Positions 2,269-32,527 of a stretch of DNA of 43,554 nucleotides are shown piece after piece. Position 1 is the stretch's first letter; each line of letters opens with the position of its first letter. The notes below the pieces were generated by a model. The model was not told the DNA's origin. It did no database searches and saw only the letters and a list, made by a program, of their open reading frames with translations. Location: positions 1-43,554 of the forward strand of contig JAKOVW010000063.1 in the NCBI GenBank assembly GCA_029781865.1, read 5' to 3'. A program made the translations under genes and the position numbers. Source of the DNA: Bacteroidota bacterium. GTDB lineage: Bacteria; Bacteroidota; Bacteroidia; Chitinophagales; Saprospiraceae.

Positions 2269-2285
2269 ACTAAACATCAAAACTC

Positions 2286-2319
2286 GAGGGGATGGAATTT
2301 ATTTCATCCCCTTTTTTTT
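2286..2319 (+). terminator. Rho-independent terminator after the first surface-protein gene
   Basis: GGGGATG (2288-2294) pairs with CATCCCC (2305-2311), the stem extends inward through GAA/TTT, and eight T follow directly. It lies 18 bases after the stop codon. Confidence 0.9.
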
Positions 2320-16131: not shown

Positions 16132-16278
16132 ATGAACTTTTTTCCGGATCATATAAAACTAATTGAAAAGATGTTTTGGAAAACGCGTTTCGTGGGTATT
16201 TTTGCAGGCAGAAAGCCAATGATTAAAGGTATATTATTTTTCAAAAACTATATTCAATTATCTTTCAATATTTTATGA
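16132..16278 (+). CDS. Possible 48-codon ORF overlapping the actA start
   Basis: The ORF begins at an ATG preceded by a purine-rich stretch (AAGAGGAATAG) and runs 48 codons. Its TGA overlaps the actA ATG (ATGA), an arrangement common for coupled genes. The peptide is basic and Phe/Ile-rich with no recognised domain. Against it, the best promoter match for actA (16175-16204) lies inside the ORF. It may be chance. Confidence 0.2.
   Translation: MNFFPDHIKLIEKMFWKTRFVGIFAGRKPMIKGILFFKNYIQLSFNIL
16175..16204 (+). promoter_or_regulatory. Predicted Bacteroidota-type promoter of the act-cox operon
   Basis: A -33 element TTTG (16175-16178) is followed after 18 bases by a perfect -7 box, TATTTTTG (16197-16204). 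The actA start is 70 bases downstream. Confidence 0.6.
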
Positions 16279-17684
16279 GCTACAAAAGCTTAATTTGCTG
16301 CATTGTTTCTCTCCTGTTTACAGTTGGGACTCTCTCTTCCGCTCCGGATATTGAAGCTGGAAAAAACTCTTTTAAAAACAATTGTGCATCCTGCCATAAT
16401 AAAAATATGAAGGATGCTCTGACGGGACCAGCTCTCGGAGGAGTTGGTGAACGCTGGGCTTCATTCCCAAAGGAAGATCTCTATTCCTGGATTCGCAATT
16501 CTCAGGGCCTTATAAAAGCAGGGCATCCACGAGCAACGGAATTATGGAATCAGTTCAAACCGACGGTCATGACTGCCTTCCCCAATCTGTCTAATGATGA
16601 GATTGAAAGCATACTGTTGTATGTGGATGGTGTTTATAAAGGCACCTACGGCCCCAAGGTTGCAGCAGGACCAAGTGGAGCCGCAGCCTCAAATGCCGGT
16701 CAGGAGAGTGGATTTTCATTTTGGCTCTATCTCATATTTGTCTTGTTGATCGTAATTGCTTTGTTCTTATGGAACCTGATGTCAGATCTGGATTTTCAGT
16801 TGAAGCGCAAAGCAGGCGATACCACTGCAGTCAGAACATCCATATGGAAATTACTGACCAGCAAAGCCATTGTAACCTTTATCATTTTTGCTTTGGTTTT
16901 ATTCGGTGGATATACTACCGTAAATAATGCCATATCGTTGGGAAGACAGCAGAATTATGCTCCAGATCAACCAATCAAATTCAGCCATGCAACCCATGCC
17001 GGCCTCCATAAAATTGATTGTAATTATTGTCATGATGGTGCAAGAAGATCCAAACAATCCATCATTCCTGCGACAAACACCTGTATGAATTGTCATGCAG
17101 CCATTAAGAAAGGAAGTAAATACGGAACTGCTGAAATCACCAAAATCTATGCATCAATAGGCTTTAATCCGAATACCGACAAATACATTGAAAACTATGA
17201 GAGTCTTTCCGAATCAGAAATAGAAGCCATTTACAAGAAATGGATTGGAGATAATTATGTGAAAGATAATAAACTCGGTTCAGCAACCCAGGGTTCACAA
17301 CAGGAAACCGACTCACAATGGAATATGATCAAGGAATCATTAACCAGTGATACTAAATCTGCTATTCCTGGTGCAATCGAATGGAAGCGGATTCATAACC
17401 TTCCGGATCATGTTTATTTTAATCATTCACAACACGTAACCATTGGTAAAATTGCATGTCAGCAATGTCATGGTAAAGTAGAAGAAATGCAGGTGGTTAA
17501 ACAATATGCGCCGCTGTCAATGGGCTGGTGTATTAATTGTCACAGGCAGACCGATGTAAAATTTGCGGATAACAAATATTACGACAGTTATAAAACCTAT
17601 CACGATGAAATTAAAAGTGGCCAAAGGCAGTCTGTGAAAGTAAGTGATATCGGTGGATTGGATTGTCAAAAATGTCATTATTGA
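16275..17684 (+). CDS. actA: Alternative Complex III subunit ActA, multiheme cytochrome c
   Basis: Multiheme c-type cytochrome of the quinol:cytochrome c oxidoreductase ACIII. The 469-aa protein has six CxxCH sites. One is in an N-terminal monoheme domain (CASCH at residue 37) behind a signal-like segment. Five are in the C-terminal part: CNYCH near 250, CMNCH near 270, CQQCH near 395, CINCH near 419 and CQKCH near 464. Two membrane helices separate these parts (about 147-169 and 193-212). The classical description of ActA is pentaheme, so the N-terminal heme domain is extra. It could relay electrons toward the oxidase encoded downstream. First gene of a long operon, 10 bases before actB. Confidence 0.93.
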   Translation: MSYKSLICCIVSLLFTVGTLSSAPDIEAGKNSFKNNCASCHNKNMKDALTGPALGGVGERWASFPKEDLYSWIRNSQGLIKAGHPRATELWNQFKPTVMTAFPNLSNDEIESILLYVDGVYKGTYGPKVAAGPSGAAASNAGQESGFSFWLYLIFVLLIVIALFLWNLMSDLDFQLKRKAGDTTAVRTSIWKLLTSKAIVTFIIFALVLFGGYTTVNNAISLGRQQNYAPDQPIKFSHATHAGLHKIDCNYCHDGARRSKQSIIPATNTCMNCHAAIKKGSKYGTAEITKIYASIGFNPNTDKYIENYESLSESEIEAIYKKWIGDNYVKDNKLGSATQGSQQETDSQWNMIKESLTSDTKSAIPGAIEWKRIHNLPDHVYFNHSQHVTIGKIACQQCHGKVEEMQVVKQYAPLSMGWCINCHRQTDVKFADNKYYDSYKTYHDEIKSGQRQSVKVSDIGGLDCQKCHY

Positions 17685-17694
17685 TTAAGCAGCA

Positions 17695-20600
17695 ATGAAG
17701 AAACAAATGAAACAAAGTGAAACAACTTTCTGGATTGATGATCAGGATTTGACAAGAGATCCGGAATTTTTAGCGAAAGTTGAATCCGAATTATCTCCGG
17801 TCGCCATTGAATCCATATTGACTGATGAACGCGCAGGAGTCTTTGAAACCAACCGCAGGGATTTTTTAAAAGTCCTCGGTTTTGGTATAGGAGCTGCCAC
17901 TTTAGCATCTTGCGAAATACCGGTTAAAAAAGCGATTCCCTATGTGATTAAGCCGGATACCATCGTGCCTGGAATAGCCAATTATTATGCATCCAGTTAT
18001 GTAAATGGAGGGGATTATTGCTCTGTCCTGGTGAAAACCAGAGAAGGAAGACCTATAAAGATTGAAGGAAACGCGTCTTCTGCAATTACGAATGGAGGAA
18101 CGAATGCCAGGGTTCAGGCAGCCGTTCTTAGTTTGTATGATTATAACCGGATCAAACAACCATCAAAAAATAATCAGGGTCAGTTAACTGCTTCCGATTG
18201 GAAGACAATAGATGAAGAAATAAAAGCTGCCCTCGGATCTGGAGGAAAAATCCGGATTTTAAGCAGCACGATGATGAGTCCTACTGCCCTTAAAGCGGTT
18301 AGTGAATTCACAACAAAATTTCCGGGTGCAAAACATGTAATGTATGATGCAGTATCATCATCTGCTTTACTGGATGCTGCACAGCAATGCTTTGGTGAAC
18401 GCATGATTCCGGATTATCGATTCGATCTTGCCGATACAATTGTAAGCTTTAATGCAGATTTTCTGGGTACCTGGATTTCTCCAATAGAGTATGCAGGTCA
18501 ATATGCAAAACGCAGAAGAATTCATATGGATTCTGTATCGATGTCGCATCATATTCAGATAGAATCCCATATGTCTTTGAGTGGATCAAATGCAGACAAT
18601 AGAATTCTGGTAAAGCCTTCAGAGCAAAGTAGTGCCATTGCACAGTTATATAATGAAGTCAGTTCTAAAACCGGCGGAGCAACTATTTCCGTATCCGGAG
18701 TAAATGATAAAGCAAAGTCTGCAATTTCAAAAGTTGCAGAGTCTTTATTGAATCAAAAGGGAAAATCATTAGTGATTTGCGGCAACAATAATCTGGGTGA
18801 CCAAATTCTTGTTTTTGCAATCAATAATTTATTGAATAATATTGGCTCAACGGTTCAATTTGACAGAGCTTCCAATCAACGCAAGGGTAGTGATGCCGAT
18901 TTGAATCAGTTGATGACAGATATGAAGTCATCTAATGTAGATGCATTAATTATCTGGAATGCTAATCCTTGTTACGATACGCCATTTGCCGCTGATTTTG
19001 GACAAGCCATGGCGAATGTAAAAACTAAAATCAGTTTGAATACGACACTGGATGAAACATCCATGTTGTGCAATTACATCTGTCCTGATCATCACAATCT
19101 TGAATCATGGGGTGATGTTGAAGCGAAAAGAGGATCATTTAGTTTTATTCAACCTACAATCAATCCAATTTTTAATACCAGGCAAGTTCCTCATTCACTC
19201 CTCGTTTGGTGTGATAGTAAAAATTTAAATACTACGGCAGAACAACCCTATTATGAGTATTTAAAAAAATGCTGGCAGGACAAGCATGGCGAATTAAAAT
19301 TATCGCCATCTGACTTTCAAACTTTCTGGGATGAAAATATACACAATGGCGTATTTGAAATGCCTGCTGCATCGAAATCAGTTGCATTCAAAGGAGATGT
19401 AAATATGGCAGCCGGAAAATTGACTAAACCTTCCAATGCTCCGGTAGAAATTGCGTTTTTTGAGCCGGTTGCAGTCGGAGGTGGCATGTATGCTTCCAAT
19501 CCATGGTTGCAGGAAATGCCAGATCCGGTTACGCGTTGTTCCTGGGGCAATTACTTAGCTGTTCCAATTAGTTTTGATGGAGACCGCCGATTCATCAGTT
19601 TCAACAATATCAAAGAAAACGGTGAGGAAGTAGAATTAACCATAAGTGGAAATAAAACAAAAATAGGAGCTATAAAGCAATTTGGTCAAATGGCCGGAAC
19701 GGTTGCCATAGCTCTTGGTTATGGTAGAAGAAATGCCGGAGATTGTGGTACGGGAATCGGTACTGATTTTAATTCCTCCTGTAAATGGGTGGATGGTTAC
19801 ATTCAGTATTTTAATACAGAAGTAGAAGTTTCAAATAGTTTAGGCAGTATAGAAAAGCACTTTGCCTGTGTACAGCATCACCATACCATGGGTGTGACTT
19901 CCATTGAAAAATCAACCGGAAAAAAATTCAACGCCGACGAAGCAGCTTTAGTAGATGATGCATTCAAAGGTCTGACCAAAGGATATCAGGGATCATTGAC
20001 AGACAGATCAGTTATCCGTCATAGCCATTTAAATGAGGTTAAAGAAAAAGTTGAACTTCTAAAGGAAGAACGAAAAGATCATCAGAAATTAAATTCATAT
20101 ACGCTTTATCCCAGTCATGACTATAAATACAATGCTGGTCATCATTGGGGTATGCACATCGATTTGAATTCGTGTATTGGATGTGGAACCTGTACGATTG
20201 CCTGTATGGCCGAAAACAATGTTCCGGTAGTTGGTAAAAAGGAAGTTTCAAGGCATCATGAAATGTCGTGGTTGAGAATTGACCGCTATTATTATGGCGA
20301 TGTAGAGAATCCGAATGTAGTTTATCAGCCGATGATGTGTCAGCATTGCAATAATGCACCTTGTGAAAATGTCTGTCCTGTAAATGCGACAAACCATTCT
20401 CAGGAAGGATTAAATCAGATGGCTTACAATCGTTGTGTTGGAACCCGTTATTGTGCAAACAATTGCCCTTATAAAGTAAGAAGATTTAACTGGTATGATT
20501 ATACCACTGCGGATCTGTTCCCAATGAATCAGTATAATCTTGCAGCCGAAAAAACGCAACCATTTTATTCTGATAATCTGGTCAGAATGGTTTTGAATCC

Positions 20601-20907
20601 TGATGTAACCGTTCGTTCAAGAGGTGTTATCGAAAAATGTTCTTTCTGTGTACAACGGATACAGGAAGGTAAATTAACGGCAAAGAAAGAAGACAGAACA
20701 TTGTCTGACAATGATGTTAAAACGGCTTGTCAGACGGCATGTCCTACCAATGCAATTACATTTGGAGATATGAATAATAAAGAAGGAAATCTTTTTAGAA
20801 AACTGGAGAACCCTCTGAATTATATTGTATTGGAAGAAATCAATGCGAAGTCTGTTGTGAATTATACTATGAAAGTGAACAACCGTAACGAAAATTTAGA
20901 TGCCTAA
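17695..20907 (+). CDS. actB: Alternative Complex III subunit ActB, molybdopterin-oxidoreductase-like and iron-sulfur fusion
   Basis: The 1070-aa peripheral subunit of ACIII. A Tat motif (NRRDFLKVLGFG, R54-R55) leads into a perfect lipobox (LASC, C73), so the mature protein is probably exported folded and lipid-anchored. The large middle region resembles molybdopterin oxidoreductases, which in ACIII lack the cofactor. The C-terminal ferredoxin part starts near residue 826: CIGCGTCTIAC, then CQHCNNAPCENVCP, then CVGTRYCANNCP, then CSFC/CQTACP. In the third motif the second Cys is Thr, which fits one 3Fe-4S cluster among 4Fe-4S clusters, as known for ActB. A start at 17707 is also possible. Confidence 0.95.
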   Translation: MKKQMKQSETTFWIDDQDLTRDPEFLAKVESELSPVAIESILTDERAGVFETNRRDFLKVLGFGIGAATLASCEIPVKKAIPYVIKPDTIVPGIANYYASSYVNGGDYCSVLVKTREGRPIKIEGNASSAITNGGTNARVQAAVLSLYDYNRIKQPSKNNQGQLTASDWKTIDEEIKAALGSGGKIRILSSTMMSPTALKAVSEFTTKFPGAKHVMYDAVSSSALLDAAQQCFGERMIPDYRFDLADTIVSFNADFLGTWISPIEYAGQYAKRRRIHMDSVSMSHHIQIESHMSLSGSNADNRILVKPSEQSSAIAQLYNEVSSKTGGATISVSGVNDKAKSAISKVAESLLNQKGKSLVICGNNNLGDQILVFAINNLLNNIGSTVQFDRASNQRKGSDADLNQLMTDMKSSNVDALIIWNANPCYDTPFAADFGQAMANVKTKISLNTTLDETSMLCNYICPDHHNLESWGDVEAKRGSFSFIQPTINPIFNTRQVPHSLLVWCDSKNLNTTAEQPYYEYLKKCWQDKHGELKLSPSDFQTFWDENIHNGVFEMPAASKSVAFKGDVNMAAGKLTKPSNAPVEIAFFEPVAVGGGMYASNPWLQEMPDPVTRCSWGNYLAVPISFDGDRRFISFNNIKENGEEVELTISGNKTKIGAIKQFGQMAGTVAIALGYGRRNAGDCGTGIGTDFNSSCKWVDGYIQYFNTEVEVSNSLGSIEKHFACVQHHHTMGVTSIEKSTGKKFNADEAALVDDAFKGLTKGYQGSLTDRSVIRHSHLNEVKEKVELLKEERKDHQKLNSYTLYPSHDYKYNAGHHWGMHIDLNSCIGCGTCTIACMAENNVPVVGKKEVSRHHEMSWLRIDRYYYGDVENPNVVYQPMMCQHCNNAPCENVCPVNATNHSQEGLNQMAYNRCVGTRYCANNCPYKVRRFNWYDYTTADLFPMNQYNLAAEKTQPFYSDNLVRMVLNPDVTVRSRGVIEKCSFCVQRIQEGKLTAKKEDRTLSDNDVKTACQTACPTNAITFGDMNNKEGNLFRKLENPLNYIVLEEINAKSVVNYTMKVNNRNENLDA

Positions 20908-20924: not shown

Positions 20925-22355
20925 ATGTCAGGAGGAATTGTAGCACCGGTTAGAAAGCCACTTATAGAAGGACATAAAACCTATCATCAGATTACGGAAG
21001 ATTTGTGTTCTCCAACGGAACGCACTCCGAGCAGGGCATGGATAATAGCTTTTATTGTAGCTTCTTCTACGCTTGCATTCGGTGTATTCTGTATTTTATG
21101 GACCATCTGGATGGGAATCGGATCCTGGAATCTTAACAGGACCATCGGTTGGGGTTATGATATAACCAATTTCGTTTGGTGGATCGGTATTGGACATGCC
21201 GGTACCCTCATTTCTGCCATCTTATTGTTATTCCGTCAGAGATGGCGTACCGGGGTGAATCGTGCCGCGGAAGCTATGACCATATTTGCGGTAATTTGTG
21301 CGGCATTATTTCCTGCTATTCACGTCGGAAGAATCTGGGTTGTTTTTTACTTTTTTCCATATCCAAATACCAGAGGTGCCCTTTGGCCAAATTTTAATTC
21401 ACCATTGCTCTGGGACGTATTTGCGATATCTACCTATTTCTCTGTTTCACTGTTGTTTTGGTATACTGGTCTGGTACCTGATTTTGCTTCAGTACGAAAC
21501 CGTGCAAGCGGATTCAGAAAAAAAATATATAATGCATTATCATTCGGATGGACAGGTTCTGCTAAACATTGGCAGAGATGGGAGTCTTTGTCTTTAGTTC
21601 TGGCCGGACTTTCGACACCTCTTGTACTCTCCGTTCACACCATAGTAAGTTTTGACTTTGCAACGTCTGTAATACCCGGATGGCATACGACTATTTTCCC
21701 TCCGTATTTCGTTGCAGGAGCTATTTTTTCAGGGTTTGCCATGGTGCAAACCTTAATGGTGATGACTCGCAAAATTTTAAAACTGGAACAGTATATAACA
21801 TTAGAGCATATTGAATCAATGAATAAAGTTATTCTGGTTACCGGTACGGTAGTTGGGGTTGCTTACTTAACCGAGTTATTCATTGCCTGGTATTCTGGAT
21901 ATGTATATGAGCAATTTGCTTTTTTCAACAGAGCCATGGGTGTTTACTGGTGGTCCTATTTTGGAATGATGTCCTGTAATGTGATATCACCCCAGTTGTT
22001 TTGGGTTAAGAAATTAAGACGCAGCGTTTTCTTTACATTCTTCATGTCCATCTTTGTTAATATAGGAATGTGGTTTGAGCGATTCGTGATTATAGCCACA
22101 ACTTTAGCGCGGGATTATCTTCCTTCTTCTTGGAGTTATTACAAGCCAACCTGGGTTGAGATTGGAATATTTGTAGGCACACTTGGTTTATTCTTTACTT
22201 TTTATCTGATTTTCGTCAGAGTTGCTCCTGTAGTTGCAATTGCCGAAGTAAAGCATATCTTAAAAGTTGGAGGTGATCAATACATAGGTGAGAATGCCAT
22301 ACACAGACACAAAGATGAACACGCAACTCATCACGATCATCATCAGCATCATTAA
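20925..22355 (+). CDS. actC: Alternative Complex III subunit ActC, NrfD-like quinol-binding membrane protein
   Basis: A 476-aa polytopic membrane protein of the NrfD/PsrC family with about ten helices. In ACIII, ActC and ActF are the two related membrane subunits, and the quinol site lies in ActC beside the ActB clusters. The sequence is hydrophobic throughout, with helices such as AWIIAFIVASSTLAFGVFCI near residue 38, and ends in a His-rich tail (HATHHDHHQHH). It lies 17 bases after actB and shares its fold with the actF product further down. Confidence 0.94.
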   Translation: MSGGIVAPVRKPLIEGHKTYHQITEDLCSPTERTPSRAWIIAFIVASSTLAFGVFCILWTIWMGIGSWNLNRTIGWGYDITNFVWWIGIGHAGTLISAILLLFRQRWRTGVNRAAEAMTIFAVICAALFPAIHVGRIWVVFYFFPYPNTRGALWPNFNSPLLWDVFAISTYFSVSLLFWYTGLVPDFASVRNRASGFRKKIYNALSFGWTGSAKHWQRWESLSLVLAGLSTPLVLSVHTIVSFDFATSVIPGWHTTIFPPYFVAGAIFSGFAMVQTLMVMTRKILKLEQYITLEHIESMNKVILVTGTVVGVAYLTELFIAWYSGYVYEQFAFFNRAMGVYWWSYFGMMSCNVISPQLFWVKKLRRSVFFTFFMSIFVNIGMWFERFVIIATTLARDYLPSSWSYYKPTWVEIGIFVGTLGLFFTFYLIFVRVAPVVAIAEVKHILKVGGDQYIGENAIHRHKDEHATHHDHHQHH

Positions 22356-22380: not shown

Positions 22381-22902
22381 ATGAGACAGTTAAATAAAAA
22401 TGTGATATACGGAATCTATTCGGATGAAGAATTACTGCTAAGTGCAGTAAGAAATGCTAAAAGCAAGCATCTCGAAGTTATGGATGTATTTACTCCTTTT
22501 CCGGTGCATGGAATGGATCAGGCTTTGGGTCTGGAAGAATCCCGTTTGCATCAGGCTGGATTCGTTTATGGTGCAATAGGTACCTTAACGGCATTCCTCG
22601 GAATGACCTGGATTATGACCAGTGACTGGCCGATTATTTTTGGAGGTAAGCCTTATTGGCCGGTACCTTCTTATATTCCAATTGTATTTGAATTGACTGT
22701 CCTGTTTGCATCCTGGGGAATGACTATTACATTTTATACCATTTGCGGATTATGGCCAGGGGTATCTAATCCTCAATTGGATTTGCGTACGACGGATGAT
22801 AAATTTTGTCTGGCATTCGACAAAAATGATGTGTCAGAATCTGTTGCCAGGGCTTTTTTTAATGAAACCGGAGCAGAAGAAGTGAATACCAAAAGCATAT
22901 GA
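22381..22902 (+). CDS. actD: Alternative Complex III subunit ActD (DUF3341)
   Basis: A 173-aa small membrane subunit of ACIII. It begins with a soluble alpha/beta segment (GIYSDEELLLSAVRNAK) followed by two transmembrane helices (residues about 60-82 and 98-122), the standard DUF3341 plan. Its stop overlaps the actE start by four bases (ATGA), so the two are probably translationally coupled. The subunit is structural and binds no cofactor. Confidence 0.93.
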   Translation: MRQLNKNVIYGIYSDEELLLSAVRNAKSKHLEVMDVFTPFPVHGMDQALGLEESRLHQAGFVYGAIGTLTAFLGMTWIMTSDWPIIFGGKPYWPVPSYIPIVFELTVLFASWGMTITFYTICGLWPGVSNPQLDLRTTDDKFCLAFDKNDVSESVARAFFNETGAEEVNTKSI

Positions 22903-23714
22903 AAATGAAAACCACACTTTATAGTATCGCTGTCATTTTTATTACACTGTTTTTCATTCAGTGCAGTCCGGCAGGAGGTAATGAAACAGGACATGAATAT
23001 ATGCCTGACATGTCTCATTCGATTGCATATGAAGCAAACGTGAATAGTTATTACTATTATCACTCCTGGGGCAGTAAAGAAGAAATAGACAGAATGTCTA
23101 CGCCAAGAAAACCAGTCAAAGGAACTATAGCCAGGGGAAGTCTGCCATCTTCTGCAAATCATATGATGGATTCAATGATGAATGGTTCTTTAAATGGAAA
23201 TGCCATTCGCATACCAATGAATGGATCAGTTGCTTATTATTATGGAAATACAGAAGATGAGCGCAACAGGGCGATGAAGGAAATTGTAGCCAATCCGGTA
23301 AAGCTTACTGACGCGGCTCTTGCTAAGGGTAAAAATTTATACACGATCAATTGTGCAATCTGTCATGGCGATTTAGGTGATGGTGCCGGTTATTTGGTAA
23401 GGGATGACGGAGGAAAGTATCCTGCACAACCTGCTAATTTCTTAAAAGATGATTTTATAGCAAGCAGTGAAGGCAGATTTTATCATTCCATCATGTATGG
23501 TAAAAACATGATGGGTTCTTATGCGGATAAACTTTCTTATGAAGAAAGATGGGATGTAATTCATTACATCAGATCCTTACAGGCCAATTCCAAAAAATTA
23601 AAATATAGCGAGAAAGAAAATACGTTTAGTGGTTCACAGGCTGTGCTTGACGCAAAGAAAGCAAGTAGCGCACCTGCGGCGCCAGTTGCTCCAAGCAGCA
23701 ATGTGAAAAAATAA
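22899..23714 (+). CDS. actE: Alternative Complex III subunit ActE, monoheme cytochrome c lipoprotein
   Basis: A 271-aa periplasmic cytochrome. The N-terminus is a lipoprotein signal ending FFIQC, with the lipidated Cys near residue 25. One CxxCH (NCAICHGDLGDGAG, near 151) lies in a cytochrome c domain, with candidate axial methionines in the MYGKNMMGSY segment near 205. The tail is a low-complexity Ala/Pro/Ser stretch. In ACIII, ActE works with ActA to pass electrons out to the acceptor, here probably the CuA subunit two genes downstream. Confidence 0.94.
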   Translation: MKMKTTLYSIAVIFITLFFIQCSPAGGNETGHEYMPDMSHSIAYEANVNSYYYYHSWGSKEEIDRMSTPRKPVKGTIARGSLPSSANHMMDSMMNGSLNGNAIRIPMNGSVAYYYGNTEDERNRAMKEIVANPVKLTDAALAKGKNLYTINCAICHGDLGDGAGYLVRDDGGKYPAQPANFLKDDFIASSEGRFYHSIMYGKNMMGSYADKLSYEERWDVIHYIRSLQANSKKLKYSEKENTFSGSQAVLDAKKASSAPAAPVAPSSNVKK

Positions 23715-23747: not shown

Positions 23748-25082
23748 ATGAGCTCAATACAATTACCATCCCGCGACAAGACGATACTTGGAGTCATGGG
23801 ATTCATTGGAATCATTTCCTTGGTTTCAATAATCAGAAGTGATGATCCTCTGTATACGAGGTTTTGGAGTAGCATACTTCACAATAGTGTATATTTTACA
23901 CTCATCGCAATGATGGCTATCTTTTTTATATGTATCAACAGAACAGCTTATGCAGGCTGGGCTGTGGGATTCAAAAGAGTTTGGGAAGCCATGTCGCAAT
24001 TTCTATGGGTTGGTTTTGCACTGATGTTCTTTATCGCATTAGGCGTTTATTTTGGATGGCATCATTTATATCATTGGTCTGATGCAGAAGTTGTGGCTAA
24101 AGATTCCGTTCTGAAAGGGAAATCTTCGTTCTTAAATAAAAATTTCTACGCTATTGTTGGTTTAGGTATTCTGGCTTCATGGATATTCTTTGCACACAAG
24201 ATGAGATCATTGAGTATTGAAGAAGATTATCATGATGATCCGAAACATACTCGTTATGAAAAAATGAAATTTTGGGCAGCTATTTTTCTTCCTGTCGCAG
24301 GATTTTCAAGTGCTGTTGTAATATGGCTGTGGTTAATGTCAGTGGATCCTCATTGGTATAGTACCATGTTCGCATGGTATACCGGGGCAAGTTGCTTTGT
24401 TAGTATGATAGCCCTGACTATTTTATTTCTAATTTATTTGAAATCGAACGGACATTATCACAATGTCAATATGGAACACTTCCACGATTTAGGAAAATTT
24501 ATGTTTGCATTTTCTGTATTCTGGACTTACCTGTGGTTTTCTCAGTATATGTTAATTTGGTATGGAAATATCGGAGAAGAAACCGTTTATTTTCAAACGC
24601 GAATCAGGGAGTATCCTGTTTTATTTTATGGGAACCTGGTATTGAATTTCGTGCTGCCATTTTTAATCCTGCTTAGAAATGATACAAAGAGAAAATATGG
24701 AACCTTAATCGTGGTTTCTATGATTGTTTTCTTCGGTCATTGGTGGGATACATTCCAAATGGTAAAACCCGGTACACTGCATACATCTCATGAGGTTATC
24801 ATGGATTCAAATCATGCTTCAACAAGCAATGTCAAAGAAATAAAGCCTTCAGAAGGAAGTAGCGAACATTCAAAAACAGAACCGGCCTCGGAAGGGCACG
24901 AAGAAGCACATAATGACGGGGTTCCTGTGGTAGGCTATTTTATTCCCGGCCTTGCGGATATCGGAGTTATGTTGGGATTTCTCGCATTATTCTTTTCAAC
25001 AACGCTGTTCTTTCTTTCCAGGGCAGCTTTGGTTCCTAAGAGTGATCCGTTTTTACAAGAGAGTTTACATCATCATGTGTAG
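23748..25082 (+). CDS. actF: Alternative Complex III subunit ActF, NrfD-like membrane protein
   Basis: A 444-aa polytopic protein related to ActC, with about ten helices. A charged His/Glu/Ser-rich loop (about residues 345-388, with SEGSSEHSKTEPASEGHEEA) precedes the last helix. ActF completes the membrane part of ACIII. The gap to coxB is only 21 bases, so the oxidase genes are part of the same transcript. Confidence 0.93.
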   Translation: MSSIQLPSRDKTILGVMGFIGIISLVSIIRSDDPLYTRFWSSILHNSVYFTLIAMMAIFFICINRTAYAGWAVGFKRVWEAMSQFLWVGFALMFFIALGVYFGWHHLYHWSDAEVVAKDSVLKGKSSFLNKNFYAIVGLGILASWIFFAHKMRSLSIEEDYHDDPKHTRYEKMKFWAAIFLPVAGFSSAVVIWLWLMSVDPHWYSTMFAWYTGASCFVSMIALTILFLIYLKSNGHYHNVNMEHFHDLGKFMFAFSVFWTYLWFSQYMLIWYGNIGEETVYFQTRIREYPVLFYGNLVLNFVLPFLILLRNDTKRKYGTLIVVSMIVFFGHWWDTFQMVKPGTLHTSHEVIMDSNHASTSNVKEIKPSEGSSEHSKTEPASEGHEEAHNDGVPVVGYFIPGLADIGVMLGFLALFFSTTLFFLSRAALVPKSDPFLQESLHHHV

Positions 25083-25103: not shown

Positions 25104-26609
25104 ATGACAGCATTAATTACAATATTATCCATTATACTTCTATTTGTCGTCTTACTGCAAATAGCTAAGATAAATGAGATAACAGCAGAAATGAAAGGGG
25201 AGGAGGAGTATCTTACCAAATCTGCTGAATTAAATGGGAAATGGCTGATTATCTTTTGCGTCCTTTTCCTTGGATCTTTTGCATGGAGCGCCATGTATTA
25301 CGCGAACCGCTTGATGGGTTACGGACCATTGAAGGCAGCTTCAGAACATGGAAGTGCAATAGATTCTATGTTCAATGTAACGTTGATTTTTACCGGAATC
25401 GTTTTTGTGATTTGTCACATTGTACTTTTCTGGTTTCCCTATAAATTCAGATATCAGAAAGGAAAGAAGGCGTTGTTTCTTCCTCATGACAACCGACTGG
25501 AGATTATCTGGACTGCATTACCGGCTCTGGTAATGACCATACTGGTGGTACAGGGACTGGTCACATGGAATAAAGTTATGTCTGATGTAAAGTCGGGCGA
25601 TGAATACATGGAAATTGAAGCTACTGCATGGCAGTTTGCCTGGAATCTCAGATATCCCGGTGCAGATGGCAAATTGGGAGTTAAAGACTTCAGATTAATA
25701 AAACCAGGCATAAACGAATTGGGACAAGACTGGAATGATGAACGCAATCTAGACGATTATAATGCAGATGAATTGGTTTTGCCAAAAGGTAAAAAAGTCA
25801 GAGTGCGTATAATTGCCAGAGATGTTTTGCATAATTTCTATTTGCCGCATTTCAGAGTAAAGATGGATGCAGTTCCGGGCATTCCTACTTATTTTATTTT
25901 CACTCCTATTAAAACAACTGAAGAGTTTAGACAGGAATTGAGAAAATATCCGGAATATCAATTGCCTTCCGATCCAAATGATCCAAATAGCGAACCTAAA
26001 TGGAAAGTCTTTAATTATGAACTGGCTTGTGCGGAATTATGCGGAAAGGGCCATTACAGTATGAGAAGATTGGTTAAGGTAGTTACACCTGAAGAGTGGG
26101 AAAAATGGAACAAGGCACAAAAGTCTTATTACTTTACTTCGATTCGAAATACAGATGATGATCCGTTCAAAGGCAAACCAATTAAAGCTGAATTGATGAT
26201 GAAAGGCGAAGAGATGAAAAGCATGTTGAAAAAAGCGTTGGACACATCAAATACAAATACCGCAGATAAAACCTTGCGTTTGGATAATGTTTATTTTGAA
26301 ACAGGATCATCCAAATTAAGCAGTGAGTCTGAGATCGCATTGGACATTTTAAAACAAACCTTTGATCAGTATCCTAAATTGCATGTAGAGATCGGCGGAC
26401 ATACGGATAATGTTGGTGATTTGCCGCTGAATTTGAAGCTATCACAAGACCGAGCCAATGCAGTTAAAGATTATTTAGTTAGCAAAGGAATTGCTGCAGA
26501 TAAAATTGTATCCATCGGTTATGGTCCAAACAAACCGGTAGACTCTAACGACAGTGATGCAGGAAGAACTAAAAACAGAAGAATTGAATTTAAAATTTTA
26601 TCTTTTTAA
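25104..26609 (+). CDS. coxB: Cytochrome c oxidase subunit II (CuA) fused to a C-terminal OmpA-like domain
   Basis: A 501-aa electron-entry subunit of the terminal oxidase. Four hydrophobic helices (about 1-22, 47-66, 91-115 and 134-155) precede the cupredoxin domain, one or two more than in typical subunit II. CuA ligands are complete: His near 241 (DVLHNFYLP) and CAELCGKGHYSM near 308-319. A linker then leads to an OmpA-type domain at about 389-501 (VYFETGSSKL, GGHTDNVGD, LSQDRANAVKDYLVSKG). The Asp and Arg that bind diaminopimelate in E. coli OmpA are kept (HTD and DRA). In caa3 oxidases this C-terminal position holds a cytochrome c. Here it suggests attachment of the oxidase to peptidoglycan. 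Confidence 0.95.
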   Translation: MTALITILSIILLFVVLLQIAKINEITAEMKGEEEYLTKSAELNGKWLIIFCVLFLGSFAWSAMYYANRLMGYGPLKAASEHGSAIDSMFNVTLIFTGIVFVICHIVLFWFPYKFRYQKGKKALFLPHDNRLEIIWTALPALVMTILVVQGLVTWNKVMSDVKSGDEYMEIEATAWQFAWNLRYPGADGKLGVKDFRLIKPGINELGQDWNDERNLDDYNADELVLPKGKKVRVRIIARDVLHNFYLPHFRVKMDAVPGIPTYFIFTPIKTTEEFRQELRKYPEYQLPSDPNDPNSEPKWKVFNYELACAELCGKGHYSMRRLVKVVTPEEWEKWNKAQKSYYFTSIRNTDDDPFKGKPIKAELMMKGEEMKSMLKKALDTSNTNTADKTLRLDNVYFETGSSKLSSESEIALDILKQTFDQYPKLHVEIGGHTDNVGDLPLNLKLSQDRANAVKDYLVSKGIAADKIVSIGYGPNKPVDSNDSDAGRTKNRRIEFKILSF

Positions 26610-26620
26610 TACATTAAATT

Positions 26621-28471
26621 ATGTCAGATACTCATACCACTCATGTTGAAAAAGATAAACTGATCCAGGAATTGGGTTACGATGATCATTTTCATGAACA
26701 TCATCATGGGGATAAATACCAAACCAACTTCCTGACTACGTATATTTTCTCACAGGACCATAAAATGATTGCCAGGCAATTTTTAATTACGGGTATTTTC
26801 TGGGCAGTCATAGGTGCTTCGATGTCTATTATTTTCAGATTGCAATTGGGATTTCCCGATGCAGATCTGTCCTGGCTAAAGCCATTGCTGGGGCAATGGA
26901 TAACAATCAATGATGCAGGTATTGGAAGATTGGATCCTGAGTTTTACTATGCATTGGTCACGATGCATGGTACTATTATTGTATTTTTCGTTCTTACCGC
27001 TGGTCTGAGTGGAACATTCAGTAATTTACTGATTCCGCTTCAGGTTGGAGCAAGAGATATGGCGTCTCCTTTTCTGAATATGCTTTCCTATTGGTTCTTT
27101 TTCTTGTCTTCCGTTGTGATGTTTTACAGCTTGTTTATAAGCACTGGACCTTTTGCAGGAGGATGGACGGCTTACCCGCCTTTAAGTGCATTGCCACAGG
27201 CATCATCAGGAAGTGGAGCCGGTATGACTTTATGGACGGTTTCTCTGGTTTTGTTTGTAGTTTCTGTACTCCTTGGAGGAATGAATTATATTACGACTGT
27301 GTTGAATCTTCGCACCAAAGGAATGAGTATGTGGAGAATGCCTTTGACTATTTGGGCATTTTTAGTGACTGCTATTCTTGCATTGTTGTCTTTTCCGGTA
27401 TTGGCATCTGGCTTCTTTTTGTTGTTGTTCGACAGAGGCTTAGGAACTAGTTTTTATTTATCTGATATTTTCATAAATGGACAGGCTTTGGATAGAATTG
27501 GCGGAAGTCCGATTTTATATCAGCACCTTTTCTGGTTTTTAGGTCATCCGGAAGTTTACATCATTATTCTCCCTGCAATGGGTATAGTATCTGAGGTACT
27601 TTCTGTACACGCCAGGAAACCAATTTTTGGCTATCGTGCAATGGTTTATTCCATTCTCGCCATCGGATTTTTATCATTTATCGTTTGGGCGCATCACATG
27701 TTTATGTCCGGAGTGAATCCATTCATATCAAACTTTTTTGTCGTATTCACTTTGATTATCGCAGTGCCTTCAGCGGTTAAGGTATTCAATTGGATAAGTA
27801 CTTTGTATGGGGGTAATATCAGGATGAATACCGCAATGTTGTTTTGTATCGGCTTTGTATCCATGTTTATTTCCGGAGGTTTAACAGGAATATTTTTGGG
27901 GAACTCGTCCATTGACATTCAACAACACGATACGTATTTCGTCGTAGCGCATTTTCATATTGTAATGGGAGTGGCTGCTTTTTTTGGAATGTTTGCAGGA
28001 GTTTATAATTGGTTTCCGAAGATGTTCGGACGATTCATGAATGAAACATTAGGCAAAATTCATTTCTGGGTTACGATGATCGGGGCCTACGCAGTATTTG
28101 GTCCTATGCATTATATTGGAATGGCTGGAGTGCCAAGAAGGTATTACCGCTTTGATAATTTTGATGCATTTAAAGATTTTGATGATTTGAATAAATTCAT
28201 CACGGTAGCTGCAATTATTACTTTTTTTGCACAGATATTGTTTGTAGTGAATTTTTTCTGGAGTATGTATAAAGGAAAGAAAATGACAGAGCAAAATCCA
28301 TATGGTTCAAATTCACTCGAATGGACTACGCCAATTGAAACCGGACATGGTAACTGGCCAGGTAAAATCCCAACGGTGCAAAGATGGGCTTATGATTATG
28401 GCAAAGATGACAAAGAATTCATACCACAACATACACCACTTGCTGAAGGTGAAGAGCACAGCAGTCATTAA
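26621..28471 (+). CDS. coxA: Cytochrome c oxidase subunit I, aa3 type
   Basis: A 616-aa catalytic subunit that reduces oxygen and pumps protons. GHPEVY near residue 309 holds a CuB His and the Glu of the D-channel, which marks an A1-type heme-copper oxidase. Further ligands are WAHHMF (CuB pair) and the QQHDTYFVVAHFHIVMG block with the heme a and a3 histidines. RDMASPFLNMLSYW is the usual helix III start. The His-rich N-terminus is a family-variable extension. It sits between coxB and the heme O synthase gene, 11 bases after coxB. Confidence 0.96.
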   Translation: MSDTHTTHVEKDKLIQELGYDDHFHEHHHGDKYQTNFLTTYIFSQDHKMIARQFLITGIFWAVIGASMSIIFRLQLGFPDADLSWLKPLLGQWITINDAGIGRLDPEFYYALVTMHGTIIVFFVLTAGLSGTFSNLLIPLQVGARDMASPFLNMLSYWFFFLSSVVMFYSLFISTGPFAGGWTAYPPLSALPQASSGSGAGMTLWTVSLVLFVVSVLLGGMNYITTVLNLRTKGMSMWRMPLTIWAFLVTAILALLSFPVLASGFFLLLFDRGLGTSFYLSDIFINGQALDRIGGSPILYQHLFWFLGHPEVYIIILPAMGIVSEVLSVHARKPIFGYRAMVYSILAIGFLSFIVWAHHMFMSGVNPFISNFFVVFTLIIAVPSAVKVFNWISTLYGGNIRMNTAMLFCIGFVSMFISGGLTGIFLGNSSIDIQQHDTYFVVAHFHIVMGVAAFFGMFAGVYNWFPKMFGRFMNETLGKIHFWVTMIGAYAVFGPMHYIGMAGVPRRYYRFDNFDAFKDFDDLNKFITVAAIITFFAQILFVVNFFWSMYKGKKMTEQNPYGSNSLEWTTPIETGHGNWPGKIPTVQRWAYDYGKDDKEFIPQHTPLAEGEEHSSH

Positions 28472-28502: not shown

Positions 28503-29393
28503 TTGAAATCAATTCATAAAACATCAATTCAGTATTCATTTATACACGACCTTGGTATATTGGTTAAGTTTAAGCTTAGCTTAATGGTTGTTATATCATC
28601 TGCATTGAGTTATATTATTCTTGCAAAGAGTCAATTTCAACTTCCTGTATTTCTATTGCTTTGCTCGGGTGGATTGTTTATCACATTTGCGGCTAACGCG
28701 ATCAATCAATGTTTAGAACGCGACTATGATAAATTAATGAAAAGAACGGCGTTGCGACCGGTTGCAGATGGACGAATGACGGTGTCGTCTTCCGTTCTCA
28801 TTTCAGGATTGTTATGTGCATTTGGTGTTATTTTGTTAGCGATGATTAACCAGGGTGCTGCATTACTTGGAATGCTTTCCTTTATATCTTATGCATTTAT
28901 TTATACCCCATTAAAAAGATATTCAACTATCGCTATCCCGGTTGGTGCCATTCCTGGTGCATTGCCTACTTTAATTGCAGGTGTGGCAGCATCGCAAGGT
29001 TTAACCTGGGAAGGTTTGTGCTTATTTGGATTGCAATATTTATGGCAGTTTCCTCACTTTTGGTCTATTGCCTGGTTAGGACATGAAGATTATAAAAAAG
29101 CTGGATTTAAATTAATTAAAGATGTTGACGGCAAACCGGACCCCAAATACGGATTATATGCTTCTATCTATTCTTTGTTGAGCCTGGTCTTTCTTTTTAT
29201 TTTCATTATTAACAATCAACTCAATTTCTTTGTTTCGATTGGTCTTGTACTCAGTATTCTTGGTTATACCATTCTTGGATTGAATTTATACCGGAGCAAT
29301 AATGAAAGAGCAGCAAAGACGTTGATGTTCGGTTCAATTATTTATCTTCCAATTATCTTGTTTTTGTTTTTACTAAACAATTTTCTGATCTGA
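28503..29393 (+). CDS. ctaB: Protoheme IX farnesyltransferase (heme O synthase), TTG start
   Basis: Adds a farnesyl chain to heme B to make heme O, the precursor of heme A needed by CoxA. The 296-aa UbiA-family protein has about nine helices and the prenyl-binding signature NQCLERDYDKLMKRT near residue 75. The first in-frame ATG is residue 29, after the conserved KFKLSLMVV helix has begun, and an in-frame TAG lies 9 bases upstream of the TTG at 28503. TTG is therefore the only sensible start, with AGGAA just upstream. Its stop overlaps the next ATG by one base. No heme A synthase (ctaA) is in the window. Confidence 0.92.
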   Translation: MKSIHKTSIQYSFIHDLGILVKFKLSLMVVISSALSYIILAKSQFQLPVFLLLCSGGLFITFAANAINQCLERDYDKLMKRTALRPVADGRMTVSSSVLISGLLCAFGVILLAMINQGAALLGMLSFISYAFIYTPLKRYSTIAIPVGAIPGALPTLIAGVAASQGLTWEGLCLFGLQYLWQFPHFWSIAWLGHEDYKKAGFKLIKDVDGKPDPKYGLYASIYSLLSLVFLFIFIINNQLNFFVSIGLVLSILGYTILGLNLYRSNNERAAKTLMFGSIIYLPIILFLFLLNNFLI

Positions 29394-29974
29394 TGCCAAT
29401 CATACAAATGATCGATAAAAATCTGGAGCCAAGCCGTTATCAGGCTCTGCGATTCGCTTTGTGGATTGGTATGGGTACCATTGCCATGATGTTTGCTTCT
29501 CTTACGAGTGCTTATCTCGTAAGAAAGCCTGCAGGGAATTGGTATGAATTCAAATTGCCCTTTCAGTTTTTTATTAGTACGCTAATCATTATTGCGTCAT
29601 CCATTACGATAGAATGGGCATATAAGAGTTTTAAGAAAGGGAATGAAAACAAATACAAATGGGGGATCTTTATTTCATTCTGTCTGGGGATGGCATTTAT
29701 GGTTTCGCAAATTGCCGCATGGAAAATATTAAGTGCAAGTGGCGTTACCATTGATTTAACTGTATCTGGATCATTTTTATATGCACTTACCGGAATACAT
29801 GCCGTGCATGTATTAGGAGGTATTGCCGTTTTAAGCGCAAGTTTGATTATTTCCTGGATGACCAAGTTCGAAGTAACATCTATGCGTATATTAAAATTAA
29901 ATCTCGTACGCCAATATTGGCATTTTGTGGATATACTTTGGATATACTTACTTTTATTTTTAATACTACAATAG
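29393..29974 (+). CDS. Cytochrome c oxidase subunit III-like protein (short, first of two)
   Basis: A 193-aa, five-helix protein of the CoxC family. It ends in the conserved RQYWHFVDILWIYLLLFLIL, equivalent to YWHFVDxVWxxLF of subunit III. Overlaps ctaB by one base. It is followed by a second, longer subunit III gene, a pairing often seen in this phylum. Which of the two is the stoichiometric subunit cannot be decided from sequence. Confidence 0.88.
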   Translation: MPIIQMIDKNLEPSRYQALRFALWIGMGTIAMMFASLTSAYLVRKPAGNWYEFKLPFQFFISTLIIIASSITIEWAYKSFKKGNENKYKWGIFISFCLGMAFMVSQIAAWKILSASGVTIDLTVSGSFLYALTGIHAVHVLGGIAVLSASLIISWMTKFEVTSMRILKLNLVRQYWHFVDILWIYLLLFLILQ

Positions 29975-29984
29975 ATAAAAACTA

Positions 29985-30827
29985 ATGGCAGCTGAACATA
30001 CTTTGCATGCACCTGAAATTCATGAAGGCGATTCCGTTTGGTCCGGTGGCAAGGAACCTTTCAAAGCGAGTTATGGTAAACTGATGATGTGGTATTTCTT
30101 ATTATCAGATGCCTTTACATTTGCAGGCTTTTTAATTTCATATGGTACGTTGCGATTTAGCAGTCCAACCTGGCCCGTACCTGATTTCGTGTTTTCGAGT
30201 TTGCCAGGTGGTTTTACGCATAAGCCATTAATCTTTGTTACATTCATGACTTTTGTTTTGATTGTGAGTAGTGTAACGATGGTTCGTGCCGTACAGGAAG
30301 GACACCGTTACAATAAAAAAGGAGTAGTGTTTTGGATGTTGCTGACCATACTTGGCGGATTGTGTTTTCTGGGTTGTCAGGCCTGGGAATGGACCACCTT
30401 AATGGGTGGTGAGCACATGACCATTCGCAGGAATCCATTTGGAACCCATATTGAATCTGGCGTTTACCTGGAAGGAGATGGGCATGATATAAAGGCCGGT
30501 GACACATTTGAAAAAGGCCACACCTATCTGATTCATAAACATGAAGATGTATGGAAACCATTATCGTATAAAACAGAAACCGGCGAAATTAAGGAACAGC
30601 AATTCGGGCCGAAGGCATTTGGTGCTTTGTTCTTTTTTATTACTGGATTTCATGGTTTTCACGTACTCAGCGGAGTGATATTTCTTTTAATTATCATGTT
30701 AAATGTGGCTAGTGGTCTTTATTCACAGCGAAAAAATCATTATGAAATGGTAGAGAAAATAGGGCTCTATTGGCATTTCGTGGATCTTGTATGGGTATTT
30801 GTGTTTTTAGTTTTTTATCTACTTTAA
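29985..30827 (+). CDS. coxC: Cytochrome c oxidase subunit III with a hydrophilic insert
   Basis: A 280-aa subunit III. The core helices and the closing YWHFVDLVWVFVFLVFYL are standard, as is the GFHGFHVLSG helix. Between helices, at about residues 142-208, there is a polar insert (with GEHMTIRRNPFGTHIESGVY and later FEKGHTYLIHKHEDVW) that most subunit III proteins lack; it probably folds outside the membrane. It begins 10 bases after the shorter coxC-like gene. Confidence 0.92.
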   Translation: MAAEHTLHAPEIHEGDSVWSGGKEPFKASYGKLMMWYFLLSDAFTFAGFLISYGTLRFSSPTWPVPDFVFSSLPGGFTHKPLIFVTFMTFVLIVSSVTMVRAVQEGHRYNKKGVVFWMLLTILGGLCFLGCQAWEWTTLMGGEHMTIRRNPFGTHIESGVYLEGDGHDIKAGDTFEKGHTYLIHKHEDVWKPLSYKTETGEIKEQQFGPKAFGALFFFITGFHGFHVLSGVIFLLIIMLNVASGLYSQRKNHYEMVEKIGLYWHFVDLVWVFVFLVFYLL

Positions 30828-30851
30828 TTTAATAAACAACAGAGGAGTAAA

Positions 30852-31337
30852 ATGGCACATTTAAATTACGAAGAAGGAAAAAAAGTCGTTTTTAAAGGTT
30901 TTGTAATCTTAGGTATTGTGACGATTGCCGAAGTTATGGTTGCATTGGTAGGTAAGGGATATATTATCGATGGATTTCATCTTCCCCGCTTTATCATGTA
31001 TTCTCTAATGATTACAATGTCTTTTTACAAAGCTTTTTATATTGTTTTTGAATTTATGCACATGCGATATGAAGTGCCCGGTTTGGTAAGGAGTGTATTA
31101 ATGCCTACTTTATTACTTATTTGGGCTGTAATTGCTTTTTTCTCCGAAGGAAACACCTGGTATCATTGGAGAAAGAAAGTCAATGACCGGCCAATATCTC
31201 AATTTTCAAGGGCGGCGTCATCGCACAGTGAAAATTCACTTTACCATATTATGGATACTAAAAATCAAGCTCAGGAGAAACCCATGCACGCCGAATCAGA
31301 AAAGAAAGACAGCACACTTGAAAAAACCCACAAATAG
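30852..31337 (+). CDS. Cytochrome c oxidase subunit IV family protein
   Basis: A 161-aa small oxidase subunit with three helices (about 14-36, 46-68 and 78-99), then a long hydrophilic C-terminal tail (about residues 105-161) rich in Ser, Glu and Lys. It matches the prokaryotic COX IV (CtaF/CyoD-like) plan. It has one of the few clear Shine-Dalgarno sequences here, AGAGGAG at 30841-30847, four bases before the ATG. Confidence 0.85.
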   Translation: MAHLNYEEGKKVVFKGFVILGIVTIAEVMVALVGKGYIIDGFHLPRFIMYSLMITMSFYKAFYIVFEFMHMRYEVPGLVRSVLMPTLLLIWAVIAFFSEGNTWYHWRKKVNDRPISQFSRAASSHSENSLYHIMDTKNQAQEKPMHAESEKKDSTLEKTHK

Positions 31338-31406
31338 TATTTTATTGAAATTTGTAATTCGAATGGTCGGATTGCGATCTAATGCTTTCTATCTATAAGA
31401 TCAAAA

Positions 31407-31991
31407 TTGAAAAAGTATCTTAATTATTTATTTCTTTCTATAATATTGGTAGGCCTTCCTTTGTATGCATGGTATTATTTATCCAAAGGCACTCAAATGA
31501 GGAAAGAGGCTATGGCTGAATTACAGCCAAAGGCTGAAGTAGGACATTTTCAAAGCGTTACGGATGCTGATTCGATGTTCTATTCTGAAAGCTTTAAAGG
31601 AAAAAAATGGATCGTTGGTATCATCGGAGCGGATTCTGCGAGAATTAAGCATGTGACTGTACTCAAGAATATTTTTAAACAGGCTAAGGAAGAGTTTTCT
31701 GTGAATGTATTTACCATAATTGGCTTGTATTCCGGAGAGTTAATTGGTGATATGGGTAAGAAATTGGATATACCCAGAAATGGAAATTGGGTTAAAACCT
31801 ATATGGCGGCACAGCATATTTTTATTTTTTCGGAAGATGCATTTGCCATTCCGGAGTTTTATAAAAATAAAAGTCTTGTTGTTTTGGTAGATGAGAATGA
31901 AAAAATCAGAAAATACTATTCGCTTGCCGATGAAAATGAAATTAAATTCATGGCTCGCCAGATACCCGTCTTCCTTAGTTTGAAACAATAG
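31407..31991 (+). CDS. SCO1/SenC-like thioredoxin-fold protein lacking the copper-binding cysteines, TTG start
   Basis: A 194-aa protein with an N-terminal membrane anchor (residues 5-27) and a thioredoxin-like body (GKKWIVGIIGADSARIKHVTVL). Genes in this position usually encode SCO proteins that deliver copper to CuA. Here the CxxxC is replaced by ADSAR, no later ligand His is evident, and no cysteine remains in the domain. It may keep a chaperone or scaffold role without metal. An in-frame TAA at 31380 lies upstream and no ATG intervenes, so TTG at 31407 is the start. Two bases before the DUF420 gene. Family assignment is by fold and context, not strong identity. Confidence 0.65.
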   Translation: MKKYLNYLFLSIILVGLPLYAWYYLSKGTQMRKEAMAELQPKAEVGHFQSVTDADSMFYSESFKGKKWIVGIIGADSARIKHVTVLKNIFKQAKEEFSVNVFTIIGLYSGELIGDMGKKLDIPRNGNWVKTYMAAQHIFIFSEDAFAIPEFYKNKSLVVLVDENEKIRKYYSLADENEIKFMARQIPVFLSLKQ

Positions 31992-31993
31992 CA

Positions 31994-32527
31994 ATGCCCT
32001 GGTCAGATAAATCGATTAAAAGAATAAATAATACCGCAACCGGGTTAAGTATCATTATTTTATTGTTTGTGGTGTTTATGCGTAAAATCCATTTGGATCT
32101 TTCAATGGATTTCTCATTCCTGCCAAAAGTATATTCTACCTTAAATACCATTTGTGCAATAGTTCTGATTTCTGCTTATATTCAAATCAGAAAAGGTAAC
32201 ATTCAGAATCACAAAAAACTAATGACTACGGCCATAATCATTTCTTTTGTTTTTCTACTTTGTTATGTGCTTTATCATATTACCAGCGAAGAAGTGAAGT
32301 TTTGTGGTACAGGAGCTATTAGGATATTTTATTTTGTTTTGCTGATCAGTCATATCGTCCTTTCCGGAATCAGTTTTCCGTTTATTTTATTTACCTATAT
32401 CAGAGGACTGACAGATCAGGTTCAAAGGCATAAAAGGATGGCCAAAATAATTTTCCCTATCTGGTTGTATATTTGCATGAGCGGGCCGCTTTGTTATATT
32501 CTGATTTATCCGTGTATTGGAAAGTAA
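31994..32527 (+). CDS. DUF420 membrane protein, CtaM-like
   Basis: A 177-aa membrane protein with about five helices and the conserved histidines of DUF420: NHKKLM, CYVLYHIT, SHIVLSG and RHKRMAK. In Staphylococcus aureus the DUF420 protein CtaM is required for a working aa3 oxidase, so a role in oxidase assembly fits this position after the cox genes. Confidence 0.88.
   Translation: MPWSDKSIKRINNTATGLSIIILLFVVFMRKIHLDLSMDFSFLPKVYSTLNTICAIVLISAYIQIRKGNIQNHKKLMTTAIIISFVFLLCYVLYHITSEEVKFCGTGAIRIFYFVLLISHIVLSGISFPFILFTYIRGLTDQVQRHKRMAKIIFPIWLYICMSGPLCYILIYPCIGK

Follow-up and report, generated by a model that had tools for sequence, protein, structure and literature searches.

The gene considered here lies in the window, by which we mean the whole stretch of 43,554 nucleotides that was analysed, and encodes an oxidase subunit II (COX2) that ends in an OmpA-type domain. 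Its frame runs uninterrupted from an ATG at 25104 to a stop codon ending at 26609 on the forward strand (501 aa, zero internal stops). The gene, its parts, and its neighbours are as follows, with the source of each call in parentheses.

16275..17684, + strand: ActA (6btm_A, 266 bits)
17695..20907, + strand: ActB (6btm_B)
20925..22355, + strand: ActC (6btm_C)
22381..22902, + strand: ActD (6btm_D)
22899..23714, + strand: ActE, monohaem cytochrome c of ACIII, without an OmpA domain here (6f0k_E, 6btm_E)
23748..25082, + strand: ActF (6btm_F)
25104..26609, + strand: COX2-OmpA fusion gene (open reading frame, Pfam, alignment)
25104..25577, + strand: membrane part, residues 1-158 (Pfam, predicted model)
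25596..26138, + strand: CuA periplasmic domain, residues ~165-345 (Pfam, model, Foldseek)
25830..25832, + strand: CuA ligand H243 (invariant, 22 sequences)
26028..26063, + strand: CuA ligand cluster C309, E311, C313, H317, and M320 (invariant, 22 sequences)
26139..26273, + strand: linker, residues 346-390 (~45 aa), with a predicted helix at 361-378 (model)
26274..26606, + strand: OmpA-type domain, residues 391-501; the Pfam match spans 26292-26579 (Pfam, model, Foldseek)
26406..26408, + strand: D435, equivalent of the diaminopimelate-binding Asp (alignment, motif, cited spacing)
26451..26453, + strand: R450, equivalent of the diaminopimelate-binding Arg (alignment, motif, cited spacing)
26621..28471, + strand: COX1, oxidase subunit I (PF00115)
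28503..32527, + strand: CtaB-like, two COX3-like, COX4-like, SCO-like, and DUF420 genes (DUF420 by Pfam)

The names CtaB-like, COX3-like, and COX4-like are ones that we presume from the usual gene order of such clusters, and the SCO-like frame has no match in Pfam or NCBIfam.

The six genes upstream of the fusion are those of ACIII, each matching its own chain, A to F, of the Flavobacterium johnsoniae ACIII-aa3 structure (6btm), with which the window operon has all six ACIII subunits in common. ActA to ActF and the aa3 genes share one cluster, which is the gene arrangement of an ACIII-aa3 assembly. Passages of PMC8552683 describe ACIII isolated together with aa3 from F. johnsoniae and with its caa3 oxidase from Rhodothermus; by homology with F. 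johnsoniae, ACIII and aa3 would form one particle in the window's host as well. Two further COX1-family frames lie elsewhere in the same genome (G000:C43:37372-38655 and G000:C37:90817-92163), so this is probably not the host's sole terminal oxidase.

Three Pfam families score above their cut-offs in the fusion (COX2_TM at residues 77-149, COX2 at 221-259, and OmpA at 397-492), and the NCBIfam equivalog CoxB stays below its own (123.1 vs 147.7). The AlphaFold2 model of the whole protein has a mean pLDDT of 82.5, and Foldseek places its non-OmpA part on COX2 chains. In the membrane part the model has helices at 2-31, 33-65, 81-114, and 130-158, that is, two extra predicted helices ahead of the usual COX2 pair; unfused COX2 matches in our phylum sample also often begin at residue 1-10. 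Residues H243, C309, E311, C313, H317, and M320, which we take to be the CuA ligands, do not vary across 22 aligned full-length sequences (that of the window and those of 21 relatives), and the original prediction was right to call the CuA site intact.

The COX2 of caa3 oxidases carries an extra C-terminal domain, a cytochrome c. The window protein resembles the caa3 subunits of Thermus (2yev) and Rhodothermus in having an extra domain at this end, but that domain is OmpA and not cytochrome c: Pfam finds no cytochrome c domain in the fusion, there is no CxxCH in the 501-aa frame, and the protein thus lacks the fused cytochrome c domain by which a caa3 oxidase is recognised.

Forms of COX2 with a CxxCH do occur in other families of the class. 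In 11 (L217-L227) of 18 loci fetched from these, COX2 is 488-562 aa long and has an N-terminal CxxCH, as in L217 at 797-2302 (- strand). The N-terminal part of the L217 protein matches the N-terminal haem domain of the window's ActA (27% over 208 aa), as though a single cytochrome domain were passing between ACIII and the oxidase. In the six of these 11 loci for which gene order was listed, ACIII genes went unmatched, save for a weak ActE-like frame in L225.

The C-terminal domain is a complete one. PF00691 is matched over profile positions 1-98 of 98 with 71.4 bits (cut-off 27.2), block means of pLDDT are 85-95 over residues 391-501, and Foldseek superposes the OmpA part of the model on 5wtp_B, the OmpA domain of Capnocytophaga gingivalis, with an rmsd of 1.4 Å over 105 columns. 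D435 and R450 are invariant in the same 22 sequences. They stand 15 residues apart, as do D271 and R286 of Acinetobacter baumannii OmpA, which passages of PMC6572160 describe, from isothermal titration, as critical for association with diaminopimelate. The claim that a full OmpA-type domain with this Asp and Arg follows COX2 is therefore upheld, and the C-terminal part of the predicted model has a confident OmpA topology. The pair is retained in 62 of 63 distinct COX2-borne domains and in 20/20 distinct domains borne by ActE, the alternative carrier discussed below. For the COX2-borne set, a strict pattern found 57/63 and the other six were judged by eye, five having the pair and one (L163) lacking it. 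All 18 OmpA-bearing frames of the last fetched loci also hold the Asp and Arg, a count that is not deduplicated against the 63 and 20.

Any such fusion invites the question of whether two genes have been joined by a frameshift, a chimera, or a binning error, and most of the named records that carry it are indeed metagenome-assembled. Among 60 relatives searched, however, there were 36 other genomes of the window's own family (f1, presumably Saprospiraceae), and the full fusion is present in 24 of them; seven of the others have a COX2 without the domain, one a COX2 fragment, and four no COX2 match. In a wider survey of the family, 351 of 398 genomes gave a COX2 match. The best 150 of the 351 all reach residue 497 or beyond and the 120 lowest-scoring are a mixture of fused and unfused. 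The 81 between them are known by E-value (2.3e-157 or better), and because these values beat that of the best match ending before residue 400 (7.4e-155, G539), most of these genomes are probably fused too. The fusion is also found in records with strain titles, namely Lewinella sp. W8, Neolewinella antarctica DSM 105096, Membranihabitans marinus CZ-AZ5, and M. maritimus C281. Since the identical single-frame fusion recurs in two-thirds of the family genomes searched and in these four named strains, and the window frame is itself single, we regard an artefact as next to impossible, and the frameshift that the original prediction named as one possible refutation is not the case.

Three wider samples were also searched. 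A phylum sample gave matches in 91/395 genomes, with the fusion in the 6 of f1 only, and a class sample gave 82/247, with the fusion in 3, all f1. In an order sample (146/179 matched), it is present in all 28 f1 genomes among the matches listed and in 5 genomes outside f1, from families f4, f8, and f19; one of the 5 is truncated at the end of its contig. The named carriers are mainly Saprospiraceae metagenome-assembled genomes, together with Lewinella, Neolewinella, Membranihabitans, Aureispira, and one Cytophagaceae metagenome-assembled genome; Phaeodactylibacter xiamenensis has no COX2-OmpA. One locus titled Thermoanaerobaculia (Acidobacteriota; L035) has a Saprospiraceae-type operon and is probably a mis-binned contig.

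A domain that is present may still do little. It could be a nearly neutral tail that arose early in the family and has since been tolerated and often decayed or lost, and the sequence comparisons offer this reading something. Identity of the OmpA domain to the window in six relatives is 0.68, 0.64, 0.61, 0.55, 0.58, and 0.59, and that of the linker in the same six is 0.71, 0.64, 0.53, 0.64, 0.38, and 0.40, so that conservation of the domain does not clearly exceed that of the linker in the four nearer relatives; in the two farthest it does so by a wide margin. Within the genus the rate at which the domain evolves is two to three times that of the CuA part. Its within-genus pN/pS of 0.32-0.40 nevertheless speaks for purifying selection (the CuA part has 0.11-0.15; synonymous sites are near saturation), and near-universal retention of the motif also argues against neutrality.

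The history of the domain is one of frequent change. In a COX2 tree of 148 rows, which leaves out rows with a COX2 core of <260 aa and 15 repeats, the COX2-OmpA label changes 24 times, at least 11 of these changes being forced by well-supported branches; in a larger tree, of 164 rows, equally short reconstructions give 5-15 gains and 8-18 losses. This, too, is what a tolerated tail would leave behind, as are the decayed copies. In L163 the OmpA domain is still recognisable and the Asp and Arg are lost. Three further COX2 frames (L064, L066, and L158; 485-488 aa) have a tail of OmpA-like length with no motif and look decayed. In all four the decay has come without apparent harm. Separately, COX2 in L113, L188-L190, and L195 has tails of ~110-150 aa in lineages near those with an OmpA domain on ActE. 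In sister lineages, the long tails of COX2 other than OmpA appear by eye acidic, Ala/Thr-rich, or helix-like and gave no OmpA match.

As for the number of origins, four groupings were put to p-AU tests on a short alignment of 112 columns. A single clade of COX2-borne domains is rejected (p-AU 0.006), as is a single origin of all fused OmpA domains (p-AU 0.0175), which makes more than one recruitment likely. The ActE-borne domains as one clade are not rejected (p-AU 0.417), nor are all fused domains once the three COX2-OmpA rows that lie outside the family (L114, L115, and L074) are removed (p-AU 0.225). The COX2 OmpA domain of genome G054 groups (99/81) with an OmpA protein, L203, of the window's own genome, which we take to be of the DUF937-OmpA type. 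Judging from these trees, COX2 probably acquired an OmpA domain at least twice. That two subunits of one assembly have each recruited the domain, and that this has happened in other families of the order as well, counts against the neutral reading, which overall we consider improbable.

The second of these subunits is ActE. Scans of whole operons showed that in some lineages with a bare COX2 an OmpA domain is fused to ActE, with a linker of similar length (median 36 aa, compared with 38 on COX2). The profile of this ActE-OmpA protein matches both OmpA chains and 6btm_E (87.7 bits), which identifies the carrier as a genuine ActE; the F. johnsoniae chain has 162 aa and is matched solely by the ActE part. 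All 16 aligned sequences have a Cys at the lipobox position. In the predicted model the cytochrome half is of low quality (mean pLDDT 67.2), and structure comparison was confined to the OmpA half. In the family survey at least 21 genomes have an ActE match to residue 348-350 of 350, which means that it runs through the OmpA domain, and fetched loci add two more (L180 and L183). In all 23 the COX2 match is without the domain (in G751 this was a two-piece match, confirmed at the locus). In the order sample, the ActE-OmpA query matched 40/179 genomes, and in 7 the match extended through the OmpA domain (six of f12 and one of f131); six of these have a COX2 match, always bare. Fetched loci add ActE-OmpA in G047 and G1103 of f12.

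In 139 distinct operons COX2 and ActE are both readable. Among these, the OmpA domain is on COX2 only in 40, on ActE only in 27, on neither in 72, and on both in 0; as operons without a fusion were fetched deliberately, this split is not a frequency. An ingroup of 106 operons of our own choosing (without L076, L078-L081, L083-L091, L093-L109, and L217-L234) contains 39 with the domain on neither subunit, L251 and L253 included. Fisher's test of exclusivity, which ignores kinship, gives p 7e-5 for the 139 and 3e-7 for the 106. Significance is lost once kinship is counted, in tests that themselves have little power: ActE-OmpA differed in only 0 or 1 of 11 independent pairs, and in the 164-row tree, of 8-9 gains of ActE-OmpA, ~1.5 fall under a COX2-OmpA parent, a state that makes up 34% of the branch length. 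The absence of double carriers is a fact of this sample, and selection may be its cause; on the neutral reading, to which the low power of these tests leaves room, the either/or pattern is ancestry.

Some labels need explanation. In the trees, loci with COX2-OmpA and no ActE in reach are counted as COX2-OmpA, and L112, whose haem region is masked, is labelled ActE-OmpA by hand. L107, with broken frames, is left out of the tables. Apart from L107, no separate OmpA gene replacing the fusion was found in the listed loci of the neither type; the shorter loci were scanned with OmpA, ActE, and COX2 profiles. L251 and L253 were candidates for such a gene and were rejected: in each, the OmpA and ActE frames overlap and reach into a stretch of N, for which reason the two loci stand as "neither" in the table, and the 164-row tree alone has them as ActE-OmpA.

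It is worth asking whether the domain grips another protein and so aids the cohesion or maturation of ACIII-aa3. In the scanned operons its only carriers are two subunits of the two partner enzymes, as might be so for such a protein-protein module, and some lineages with ActE-OmpA or with neither fusion have other long tails on COX2. An unrelated contact, however, would not require the Asp/Arg pair that nearly all copies keep, and the joint isolation of ACIII and oxidase from F. johnsoniae and Rhodothermus cited above may also count against it. We think this explanation unlikely, about on a par with the neutral one.

Binding to the wall would have parallels. MotB and TssL anchor machines of the inner membrane to the wall, and a tether on the oxidase would resemble the MotB, Pal, or TssL anchors in mechanism; MotB, Pal, and TssL/TagL share the OmpA fold of the fusion, and none of them is a respiratory enzyme. 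A wall-binding motif on PsaB of Gloeobacter has reportedly been noted by others. This photosystem I protein (7f4v, chain aB) has an OmpA-type C-terminal stretch at residues 752-864 of 872 and is, like COX2, a core subunit of an energy complex of the plasma membrane, although of a photosystem and not of an oxidase. The structure paper models PsaB residues 3-727, and its main text does not contain the words OmpA or peptidoglycan (PMC9000952). PsaB of Gloeobacter is the nearest precedent that we found for an OmpA domain on an energy-converting complex. The original prediction had stated that no characterised example was known; this stands for oxidases, in that a literature search limited to open-licence papers found no description of a COX2-OmpA or ActE-OmpA fusion, and is to be qualified by the existence of the PsaB analogue.

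We therefore favour, with reasonable though not full confidence, the view that the OmpA domain is a peptidoglycan tether for the ACIII-aa3 supercomplex as a whole. The C-terminal domain would act as a non-covalent clamp, which COX2 would hold on the periplasmic side, over the CuA site, by a linker some 40 residues long. The Asp and Arg of the clamp would grip the diaminopimelate of wall peptides, which the wall of the window's host would be expected to contain, and the supercomplex would thereby be moored to the wall. In related lineages it is ActE of ACIII that carries a domain of this kind; by homology the C-termini of COX2 and ActE are both periplasmic, and the particle held would be the same in both cases. 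A single tether for each supercomplex would suffice, which implies selection on the assembly and not on a single protein. The benefit may lie in less diffusion, a fixed position, or stability. The earlier suggestion that the fusion fixes ACIII-aa3 to the wall thus survives as the best reading, given that fold and Asp/Arg pair are intact and kept and that, in relatives with a bare COX2, ActE bears such a domain. It has to be amended in two respects: the domain is dispensable, being on neither subunit in 72/139 operons, and it is no property of COX2 alone.

Respiratory complexes are usually imagined as drifting freely in the membrane. Whether these bacteria possess a cell-wall-moored respirasome, whose clamp is kept on ACIII-aa3 as a unit and has been shifted between COX2 and ActE by evolution, is to our minds evenly balanced. 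If they do, the gain or loss of one domain would let a cell fix the lateral mobility, position, and assembly of its respiratory chain, and the three kinds of related operon (clamp on COX2, clamp on ActE, no clamp) would provide a ready natural experiment. A clamp that moves between subunits of two enzymes would also be evolutionary evidence that these enzymes work as one particle, and would extend the genetic case for the ACIII-aa3 supercomplex beyond the few species from which it has been purified.
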